Source: Gemmata massiliana | Lineage (GTDB): Bacteria > Planctomycetota > Planctomycetia > Gemmatales > Gemmataceae | NCBI GenBank assembly: GCA_000531095.1 | Contig: HG799467.1 | Span: 132,544 to 196,543, forward strand | Length of the DNA: 64,000 nt | Reading direction: 5' to 3' | Shown here: positions 1-19,156 of the stretch, one piece after another | How the letters are laid out: each line of letters starts with the position of its first letter | Position numbering within the stretch: position 1 is the first letter of the stretch | The notes under the pieces: generated by a model | What the model saw: the letters and a program-made list of their open reading frames with translations, nothing else | Databases searched by the model: none | What the model was told of the DNA's origin: nothing | Made by a program: the position numbers and the translations under genes

Positions 1-2993
1 CGTTCTTGAACAGGTTGACGGTGATCCCGGAGCGGGGTGTCGTCGGAGCTGAAGCTGTCGCCCGTGATGTCCGTGTACTTCGTGCCCGCGATCGTTATGT
101 TCTTGAAGTTACCGAAATTATTACCAGCGGACGTGCCGCCGCTGGTCACACCGCCGGGACCGACGGTGATGGTGTACCCAGCAATGCCGGCGGTCTGCGT
201 CGAGCCTGCGGGCACGAGTTCCTGGACGAAGTAGGTACCCAGATCCAGGTTCCCGAACGAGTAGGTGCCGTCGCTGGCGGTGGTGGTTGTGGCGATCAGT
301 GCGCCACTGGCGTTGTTCTGGTACAGGTTAATCGTGATCCCGCCCAGGCCCGCGTCGTCGCTCGTGATCCCGTCGCCCGTCTTGTCGGTGAACTTGGTCC
401 CGGTGATCTGACCGCGATAGAAGTTCGCAAAGTTATTACCGGAAGACGTGCCCCCGCTGCCCACGCCGCCTTGTCCGATGACCACCACATAGCCGGCACT
501 TCCGGCCGTTTGTGTCGCACCTGCGGGCACGAGTTCTTGGACGAAGTAGGTACCGGGCGCGAGGTCGCCAAACGAGTACGCACCGTTGGCCGCAGTTACG
601 GTGCTGGCAACGAGTGTGCCCGCGGTCGAGTTGCCGGAATAGAGGTTGATGGTGACACCACCGAGCCCGGTGTCGTCGCCCGAAAGCCCGTTGCCGGTGA
701 GGTCCGTGTACTTGGTCCCGGTGATCGATCCCTTCTGGAAGTTGGCAAAGTCGTTGCCCGAGGAGGTGCCCCCGCTGACCACGCCGCCGGGTCCGACAGT
801 GATGGTGTAGCCCGCGTTTCCACCGGTCTGGACGTATCCGCTGGGGACGAGTTCCTGGACGAAGTAGGTGCCGAGGTCCAGATCCCCGAAGGAGTACGTA
901 CCGTCGGCCGCGGTTACGGTGCTCGCGATCAGAGTGAGTGTGGACGTTGCCTTGTACAGGTTGACGGTGACGCCACCGAGCCCGGTGTCATCGGCGCTGA
1001 GTCCGTTGCCGGTGAGGTCGGTGACCTTCTTGCCGGTGATCTGGCCGTGGTAGAAGTTGTCGAAGTTGTTGTCGGCGCTGTTCAGGCCGCTAGTGGCGGC
1101 GATGGTGTACCCGGCGTTGCCCCCGGTCTGCGTGGCGCCCGCGGGCACGAGTTCCTGGACGAAGTAGTTACCCGGCCCGAGGTTCTCGAACTTGTACGTG
1201 CCGTCGGCCCCGGTCACGGTGCTGGTGACGAAGCTCCCGTTCTGGTACAGGTTGATGGTGACGCCGGCGCGGGGGGTGTCGTCGGAGCTGAAGCTGTCGC
1301 CCGTGATGTCGGTGAACTTGGTCCCGGTGATGGTGACCTGTTTGAAGTTGGCGAAGTTGTTGCCGGTGGCGGTTCCCCCGCTCTGGACCCCGGTGCCCCC
1401 GACGGTGACGGTGTCGTCGGAGCTGAAGCTGTCGCCCGTGATGTCGGTGAACTTGGTCCCGGTGATGGTGACCTGTTTGAAGTTGGCGAAGTTGTTGCCG
1501 GTGGCGGTTCCCCCGCTCTAACTTCGTATAATGTATGCTATACGAAGTTATTACGCTGGTGCCCGCGGGAACGGTGGACTCGTATAACTTCGTATAATGT
1601 ATGCTATACGAAGTTATTACGCGACGAGTGCCCCGCTCGCGTTGTTCTGGTACAGGTTGATGGTGACGCCACCGAGCCCGGTGTCGTCGCTGGTGATCCC
1701 GTCGCCGGTGATGTCGTTGACCTTCTTACCGGTGATCTTGGCGAGTTGGAAGTTGTCGAAGTTGTTGCTGCTGCTGACGAGGCCGCTGGTGGCGACGATG
1801 GTGTAGCCCGCGTTGCCCCCGGTCTGCTGATACCCGGTGGGCACGAGTTCCTGGACGAAGTAGTTGCCCGGGCCCTGGTTCGCGAACGAGTAGGTGCCGT
1901 CGCTGGCGGTGGTGGTGGTGGCGACGAGGGCGCCGTTCTTGAACAGGTTGACGGTGATCCCGGCGAGCGGGGTGTCGTCGGAGCTGAAGCTGTCGCCCGT
2001 GATGTCCGTGTACTTCGTGCCCGCGATCGTTATGTTCTTGAAGTTACCGAAGTCGATACCGGTGATGTTCGAGCCGCTGACCGTTCCGATGTCGCCCGGG
2101 TTCGCCGTGATTTGGGTCCACCCGGCTTGGTTCACTTCGCGAACCCGGTAAATGCCCGGGGTGAGGTTGGTGAACGAGTACGAGCCGTCGACCGCGGTGA
2201 GCGTAGTGGCCAGTACATTGTCGTTGGTATCCAGTAACTGGATCGTCCAACCCAACAGACCGCTCTCGCCACCCTCGCGCGTGCCGTTGCCGTTCACGTC
2301 CTCGAACTTCGTTCCGTGGATCTCGGCCTTTTGTTCCGGGCTCGCGGTGATCGTGTTGAGGTTGTTCAGGCTCAGGTTGATCGGGGTGCTGTTCTTGAAT
2401 ACGAGCCGGAGTTGCGTCGTGGACGAGTAGGGGACCGTGTCGCTCACCACGAGAGACCCGCTCGCCGGGATGATCTTGGCGCCAGTCGTGTCGCCGGTTG
2501 TCCCGAATAGTGTGTTGCCGTCGTCGACCCACGTTTGTGCGGTCACGGTCCCGCCCGAGGGGGTCGAACCGGTGAAACTGTAAACGAGCGTTTGGGGCGC
2601 GGGGGCCGTGGTGAGGTCGTCGAGACTTGCCTGGACGACGATGTCGTGCCCGACCGTGGCCGAAGCCGCCGCGGTACCCGTAACGGCTAAGTTCAGGGTC
2701 GTGCTCGCGGCACTGGTGGACCCCAGGGACGAGGCCTTGATCGAGATGGCCCCGATGTTCACGCCGATGGTGCCGGCTAGTGGGTCGGTGTCGTTGATGC
2801 TTCCGTCGGTGACAGCGGCCCCGAAGGTCGCGCCGCCGTTGGTACTGAACCGCAGCGCGAACGAGGGCACCAAGCGGTCTTCGAGTTGTTCGATGGCGAG
2901 GGGCTTGAGGCGCCGCGTGCGCACCGGGCGCCGCCCGGTACCGGAAATCGTCGAGTGGAGCCGCGAAAGGAACGTCTTCCACGTAGGCGTCAT
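1..2993 (-). CDS. SdrD-type B-repeat surface protein (3' partial, interrupted by library linkers)
   Basis: The N-terminus (ATG at 2993) has basic residues followed by the motif IEQLEDRLVPS near residues 33-43, a planctomycete-type N-terminal motif of very large secreted proteins. A beta-rich domain follows (about residues 45-230) that resembles the secreted protein encoded at 3317-3991. From about residue 230 come prealbumin-like SdrD B repeats of about 100 residues, each with a 'GTKYTDITGD..SSDDT' type core and a 'DGTYSF.NLGPGNYFVQE' type end; about nine are visible down to position 1. As read, the frame stops at 1617-1619, inside a sequencing linker. On the far side of the linkers (1517 downward) the same frame stays open with the same repeats, so this is one gene. 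A 2-base deficit near position 30, relative to the copy at 1934-2051, shifts the frame again. The gene leaves the window at its 3' end. It is probably a cell-surface or adhesive protein; ligand unknown. Confidence 0.82.
1275..1519. repeat. Exact 110-bp direct duplication (1275-1384 = 1410-1519)
   Basis: The two segments are identical over 110 bp at an offset of 135 bp, which keeps the reading frame. The second copy runs directly into linker 1. Natural repeat units in this gene differ at many positions, so an exact copy abutting a linker suggests an assembly join rather than a biological duplication. Confidence 0.8.
1519..1555 (+). other. 454 mate-pair linker remnant (loxP core), copy 1
   Basis: This segment carries the loxP site lacking only its first base: 13-base inverted arms of the type ATAACTTCGTATA around spacer ATGTATGC, followed by TTACG. 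It corresponds to the Roche 454 Titanium paired-end circularisation linker. It is not planctomycete DNA. It begins exactly where the second copy of a 110-bp repeat ends. Confidence 0.95.
1580..1621 (+). other. 454 mate-pair linker (complete, loxP core), copy 2
   Basis: The full 42-bp linker is present: TCGT, the 34-bp loxP site at 1584-1617, then TACG. Only 24 bases (1556-1579) separate it from the first linker. It introduces the in-frame TAA (1619-1617, minus strand) that truncates the surface-protein gene. Its presence means untrimmed mate-pair reads were built into the contig. Confidence 0.97.
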
Positions 2994-3101
2994 GACGGAG
3001 GTTCCTGAATCTGGGTGAGGGCTCTAAGGGGGAGCCACAGTGTTGAGTGCTTTCGTCAACCGCCTGAACGGACACGCGATTGGCGGAAGCGTCCAAAAAT
3101 C

Positions 3102-17365: not shown

Positions 17366-19156
17366 TTACTTGACGAGGCGGTTGGCCGCGTAGCTGATTC
17401 CCTCGAACTCCTTGGATTTGCGCACGGGTTCGAGGTCGGGGTCTCGCGCCAACCCCGGGAGGTTGCTGTACCCGTCGCGAACGGCCTGGCGCAAGAACTC
17501 CAGTGCCTTCGCCTTGTCTTCCGGGTTCGTCGCGGAGGTCAGCGAGTACACGCACGCGGCCTGGTAGCTCACCTCGGCGTCGTCGGACAGGAGCAGGGCT
17601 TGCTCGACCTCTTTGTGCGCGCCGTCGCGATCCTTGAGGCGGGCGAGGAGGACCGCCCGGCCCGAGCGCCCGAGCGCGAACTCCGGGTAGAACTCGACCA
17701 CCCGCGTCGCGACCTTGAGCGCCCCGCGCGGATCCTTCTCTTTCAAACGGTCGGCCAAAACGTGGGCCTGGTTCTGGAGCGCGACCAGGGACCGCGGGTT
17801 GAATTCCTCGGCGCTGCGGAAGTCCGCGAGTGCGCCCGTCGGGTCGTCCGAGACGCGCACCGTTCCGCGGACCAGGAAGTCCATTTCGGTCGTCGCGGTG
17901 AGTTTGCCGGCGGCCTCGCGGTCCGCCTTCGCGCCCAACGGGTCGCGCCCGTCCCGCGCCGCGGCCCGGAGCAAGTGAATGTGGAGCGGGGACGCGCCGC
18001 GCTCGAGGGCGCACGTGTAGTCCTTGTCCGCGGCCTCCAGTTGCGCGCGGGCGGCGGCGGCCCGGCCGGGGCGCGCCTCGTCGGTTCTGGCGAGCCGGTA
18101 GCGCGTCAACCCGCGTGCGCGGTACGCCTCGGCGTAGCCCGGGTCGAGGTCGATCGCCTTCGTGAACTCGGCCTCCGCGAGCGCCGGCTTCTTGCACAGG
18201 CCGTAGATCGCCCCGCGCTGGAGCGCCGGGCGCGGATCCTTGGGGAGCAGCACGCGGGCCACGTCGTAGCGCTCCAGCGCCCGCGTGTACTGGCCGAGCT
18301 GCTGGCGGCAGTACGCGAGGCAGAACTGCGCCGCGCCGTGGGCCGGTTGGTCGGCGATCGCGCGGTCGAGGAGCGGGACCGCGGTGGCGTAGCGCCCGCT
18401 CATCAGCGCGAACGCGGCCTCGATGAATTCCGTGCGCGCGCCGGGCACTTTTGCGGGGTTGGGGGCCTCGAACACTTCACCGACTGCCGGTGCGATGAGC
18501 GCCGCTTGCCGGTCGAGGGCGGCCGGGGCCGCGCTCGCGCCGAAGCACGCTTGGGCCGCGCGGTTCAGCTTCCACGCTTGGGCCGCGCGCTCGCGGCGCT
18601 CCGATTCCGGGCGCGTCTCGAAGCCCTGCCACCGGGCCTGGGCCAACAGGAGCAGCAGTTCGCCCAGGTCCGCGGTCAGGGCGCCGCGCTCGGTCTCGGT
18701 GAGCCGGCTCACTTCGGGGCGCTTCTGCCAGTCCGGGTCGCCGGGCAGCCCGTAGGCCGCGAGCAGTTCCCCGGCCCGCTTCTCGCCGCGCTCGTGGGTG
18801 GTTTTGTCGCCGTACAGGATCAGGTCGATGCGCACCGTGTCGAGCGCGGCGCGCGTGACGCGGGCCTGCTCCACGGCGCCGACCCGGGCGGTGGCCTCCG
18901 CGCGCTGGTGGAGGATGCCGCCCAGCCCGAGTGCCAGCCCGATGAGGCCCGCGGCCATCAGGCGCACGGTCAGCCCCGGGTTGCGCCGGCGCCACTTCCC
19001 GAGGCGCTCGGTGACCGAGGTCTCGCGGGCGTACCGGAGCGGTTGGTCGTTCAGATGGCGCTCGAGGTCGGTCCGGAGCTGCTCGGCGCTCTGGTACCGG
19101 TCTTCGGGTTCGGCGGCGAGCAGCTTCCGCACGATGGCCTCGACCGCGGGCGTCAC
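17366..19156 (-). CDS. Ser/Thr kinase-TPR protein, C-terminal part (TM and TPR repeats)
   Basis: This is the downstream part of the kinase gene whose 5' part lies at 19229-20378. It starts with the end of the kinase C-lobe (ILLAAEPEDRYQSAEQL-like consensus region), then a basic linker, a single transmembrane helix (about LMAAGLIGLALGLGGIL) and roughly eight degenerate TPR units with typical A..Y..RG..Y and F.KAIDLDPGYAEAY patterns. The frame is open upstream to about 19240. Reading across the shift gives a protein of about 1,000 residues with a cytoplasmic kinase and an extracytoplasmic TPR region, a common planctomycete architecture. On its own this part has no catalytic residues. Confidence 0.8.
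   Translation of the reverse strand: MTPAVEAIVRKLLAAEPEDRYQSAEQLRTDLERHLNDQPLRYARETSVTERLGKWRRRNPGLTVRLMAAGLIGLALGLGGILHQRAEATARVGAVEQARVTRAALDTVRIDLILYGDKTTHERGEKRAGELLAAYGLPGDPDWQKRPEVSRLTETERGALTADLGELLLLLAQARWQGFETRPESERRERAAQAWKLNRAAQACFGASAAPAALDRQAALIAPAVGEVFEAPNPAKVPGARTEFIEAAFALMSGRYATAVPLLDRAIADQPAHGAAQFCLAYCRQQLGQYTRALERYDVARVLLPKDPRPALQRGAIYGLCKKPALAEAEFTKAIDLDPGYAEAYRARGLTRYRLARTDEARPGRAAAARAQLEAADKDYTCALERGASPLHIHLLRAAARDGRDPLGAKADREAAGKLTATTEMDFLVRGTVRVSDDPTGALADFRSAEEFNPRSLVALQNQAHVLADRLKEKDPRGALKVATRVVEFYPEFALGRSGRAVLLARLKDRDGAHKEVEQALLLSDDAEVSYQAACVYSLTSATNPEDKAKALEFLRQAVRDGYSNLPGLARDPDLEPVRKSKEFEGISYAANRLVK

Follow-up and report, generated by a model that had tools for sequence, protein, structure and literature searches.

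Sequencing libraries in which the two ends of a DNA fragment are joined through loxP have been described for more than one platform. Circularisation by Cre and linkers of 42 bp have been reported for such libraries, and Cre-Lox mate-pair libraries have been made for Illumina as well (PMC6992861). For 454 sequencing, loxP libraries of 2.5-3 kbp are on record (PMC2731171), and reads have been sorted by means of their LoxP linker (PMC3507753). The DNA described below resembles the 454 Titanium linker in its 42-nt length, its loxP core, the genome-wide mate-pair geometry of its flanks and its closeness to scaffold gaps; a complete copy shows no difference from that linker in the features tested, and another copy is 5 nt short. 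The loxP of phage P1 has the identical 34-nt core, but its outer bases differ (match of at most 37 of 42 nt) and only distant relatives of Cre are encoded by the present genome. The interrupted gene shares its domains with surface proteins containing SdrD B-like repeats (PF17210), but the interruption itself is absent from two close orthologues.

The stretch of DNA analysed here (the window, 64,000 nt) is C6:132544-196543 of a Gemmata massiliana genome of 22 contigs and 9,269,192 bases. For G. massiliana strain IIL30, 454 Titanium sequencing with 3-kb paired ends and assembly by Newbler 2.8 into 22 scaffolds of 9,249,437 bp were reported, the libraries listed all being for 454 (PMC4672568). 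The present assembly is 19,755 bp off the published size, and we infer that it comes from the same project.

Two linker copies inside a surface-protein gene

The window was scanned for the 34-nt loxP sequence. A perfect match was found at 1584-1617 and a match with one mismatch at 1518-1551, and no match appeared across 100 shuffles of the window. The perfect site lies in a 42-nt sequence at 1580-1621 that is identical (42/42 nt) to the 454 Titanium paired-end linker, and the second site lies in a sequence (1519-1555) matching the last 37 of these 42 nt. Thus both a complete loxP within a 42-bp linker and a nearly complete second copy, as claimed in an earlier note on this DNA, were found where that note had placed them. 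The G+C content was 31% in each linker copy vs 65% for the window. The features of the locus, as read here, are as follows.

1..2993, minus strand: gene encoding a repeat-rich protein with SdrD B-like / SpaA domains, almost certainly falsely interrupted; ATG at 2993; extends past the window edge
1410..1518, no strand assigned: false tandem duplicate of 1275-1383, the opening part of a chimeric block; left edge uncertain by ~15 nt
1519..1555, plus strand: second linker, truncated (37/42 nt), with the first 5 nt missing; equals the linker's last 37 nt
1556..1579, plus strand: inter-linker stretch of 24 nt; its source was sought in the assembly and no second copy was found
1580..1621, plus strand: complete 454 Titanium paired-end linker of 42 nt; 42/42 nt identity; loxP core at 1584-1617

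Both linkers sit within the minus-strand frame starting at 2993, whose product was predicted to contain SdrD B-like and SpaA (prealbumin-like) domains; Pfam PF17210 was detected on two pieces of the gene (E-values 1.9e-26 and 1.1e-39). Five in-frame stops were identified on the minus strand (1617-1619, 1614-1616, 1551-1553, 1548-1550 and 1518-1520), the last of them straddling the linker edge. The linkers do break the gene, as had been proposed, but through five stops and not the single one of the earlier note.

The disturbed region extended beyond the linkers. DNA repeats of the gene were spaced at 291-318 nt, except for spacings of 135 and 270 nt spanning the linker place. Directly before the first linker, positions 1410-1519 were exactly identical to 1275-1384 at an offset of 135, a duplicate absent from the earlier note. 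The 24-nt stretch between the linkers (1556-1579) had no second copy anywhere in the assembly when up to three mismatches were allowed. Since the duplicated repeat stretch belongs to it, the false block spans about 1410-1621 and is larger than the linkers alone.

Comparison with relatives gave an uninterrupted version of the gene. A match to the protein was obtained in 35 of the 41 genomes searched (own genome included), and two genomes of the same genus, G009 (1 contig) and G011 (3 contigs), contained close orthologues that matched the 458-residue query along its full length (89% and 87%, respectively), in open frames without stops of 2539 and 2038 aa. The G009 sequence aligned in order to window positions 30-1414 (93%) and 1621-3000 (89%), with 116 nt between the aligned blocks vs 206 nt in the window; that of G011 aligned in order to 23-1425 (78%) and 1621-3000 (87%), with 105 nt vs 195 nt. 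Colinearity ended at 1414 (G009) or 1425 (G011), near the left edge of the duplicate. Weaker alternative alignments were also present because the gene consists of repeats. The loxP site itself was found in none of 94 other genomes of the family and in none of 391 other genomes of the phylum, the latter a sample from a larger group (up to two mismatches in both searches).

Linkers across the genome and the geometry of their flanks

At up to three mismatches, 47 loxP sites were found genome-wide, and a reversed loxP pattern used as a control had no match in the same genome. Searching 44 fetched stretches with the 26-nt core gave 48 sites. Half-linker searches (up to one mismatch; no match for the reversed half-linker controls) added 16 separate partial linker places, a damaged linker at C1:1103787 / 1103810 being counted once among them. 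Users of this assembly are therefore warned that it carries 47 near-complete loxP linkers and 16 partial ones, and that at least one gene is falsely broken.

The ends of the 48 core matches fell into a few patterns. The outer bases were intact at both linker ends in 15 sites; 12 sites had lost exactly 4 nt from the 3' end alone, and 10 had lost exactly 5 nt from the 5' end alone, as has the window's copy at 1519-1555; the other 11 showed other patterns. Flanks varied between sites, that is, the linkers were scattered with unrelated sequences on either side. A run of N (five or more) lay within 300 bp of 18 of the 48 sites vs 692 of 20000 random points (3.5%) in the same stretches, and some sites touched N runs.

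If a linker joins the end of a fragment to its start, a same-strand copy of the left flank is predicted downstream, and one of the right flank upstream. A total of 88 flanks were tested (8 further ones were dropped for N), a copy being defined as a junction-anchored 25-nt match with at most one mismatch inside the fetched stretch, which extended ~10 kb in either direction for most sites and was shorter in one direction at a few. Junction-anchored copies were found for 12 of the 88 flanks, and 11 of the 12 agreed with the prediction in both strand and side. Offsets were 1818-2454 nt for seven of these 11 copies, which agrees loosely with a 3-kb library, and 89, 89, 226 and 6104 nt for the other four. 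Of the 7922 control flanks, 100 had at least one copy; the copies followed the predicted polarity in 46 cases and departed from it in 61, and those at 1.7-2.6 kb followed it in 11 cases and departed from it in 8.

The one copy of wrong polarity belonged to the left flank of the window locus (offset -135) and was within the tandem duplicate. The copy of the right flank, at -1818, fitted the prediction and is one of the seven above, but it lies inside the tandem array and may be a natural repeat copy. Mate-pair geometry is thus shown genome-wide but is ambiguous at the window locus, since one copy there is contrary and the other possibly natural.

Origin of the insert

Identity with the linker, genome-wide scatter, closeness to gaps and the mate-pair geometry of the flanks agree with one another, the site was missing from all 485 other genomes searched, and the orthologues in two relatives are unbroken. 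The linkers are therefore almost certainly untrimmed 454 mate-pair linkers, an artefact of assembly and not biology, as the earlier note had proposed, and the locus adds nothing new on biology.

The course of events may be pictured as follows. To make a 454 Titanium paired-end library, DNA is sheared, and the fragments receive loxP adaptors and are circularised by Cre; a useful read then consists of the fragment end, the 42-nt linker and the fragment start. Part of the linkers would have been left in before or during assembly, and two of them would have entered the consensus inside the tandem-repeat surface-protein gene, a place prone to misassembly because repeat copies are hard to place. A normal repeat of ~105-116 nt (its length in the two relatives) would have been swapped for the tandem duplicate, the two linkers and the 24 nt between them. 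We infer that linker-bearing reads in this hard-to-assemble repeat caused the error at the locus.

A linker from another loxP mate-pair chemistry, such as Illumina Cre-Lox, instead of 454 Titanium is very unlikely. Libraries of that kind do exist (PMC6992861), but 454 libraries are the only ones described for the matching published project (PMC4672568).

It is extremely improbable that the copies are native lox sites, dispersed over the genome and belonging to a P1-like Cre/lox element or phage, even though they share the 34-nt core of the P1 loxP and three places in the genome encode Cre relatives. These relatives are distant (27-30% identity), with no close Cre among them; P1, P7 and ten other phage records, those of phage Q33 apart, match the linker in at most 37 of 42 nt vs 42 of 42 in the window copy; and the flank copies show mate-pair geometry, and 485 other genomes of the phylum lack the site. 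A native Cre/lox system was rejected on the match beyond that of P1, the presence of distant recombinases only and the 485 genomes without the site.

Deliberate insertion of loxP-flanked cassettes in the laboratory deserves practically no credence. loxP is a common engineering site, but here 47 sites are dispersed, a mere 24 nt separates the two copies at the window locus, and many copies are truncated, some touching N runs. That a mobile loxP-like element of natural origin has spread within a single Gemmata-like genome is likewise next to impossible.

The same linker in other records

The exact 42-mer was found in at least 100 stretches from at least nine named genomes of diverse bacteria. 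The full linker persists in records of Candidatus Paracaedibacter symbiosus, a Rickettsia endosymbiont MAG, Legionella tunisiensis, Clostridium sartagoforme, Kitasatospora cheerisanensis, Agrobacterium genomosp. 13, Litoribacter populi, Paenibacillus sp. PAMC 26794 and Streptococcus macacae. It also occurred in four viral contigs, one of which equals a listed Clostridium contig in length. The 134 full linkers in 104 loci (viral ones included) had 127 and 128 distinct flank 10-mers and no fixed flanking base, the strongest skew being T (43%) at the second 3' position.

Two small scaffolds of L. populi (L033 and L056) contained four linkers each, regularly spaced at 129 and 123 nt, and are perhaps concatenated linker reads.

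According to the earlier note, databases are known to contain phantom proteins that are translations of this linker. The literature did not bear this out: no report of linker-derived phantom proteins was found in the titles or abstract starts among the matches listed, which is weak evidence that none exists.

Of the 14 phage records compared with the linker, both records of Lactococcus phage Q33 matched it in 41 of 42 nt, and the other 12 in at most 37. In the Q33 record JX564242.1 the annotated portal gene, with its end at L177 1508, runs into the linker (17544-17584; L177 1501-1541), and the annotated C-terminus of the Q33 portal protein may be a linker artefact.
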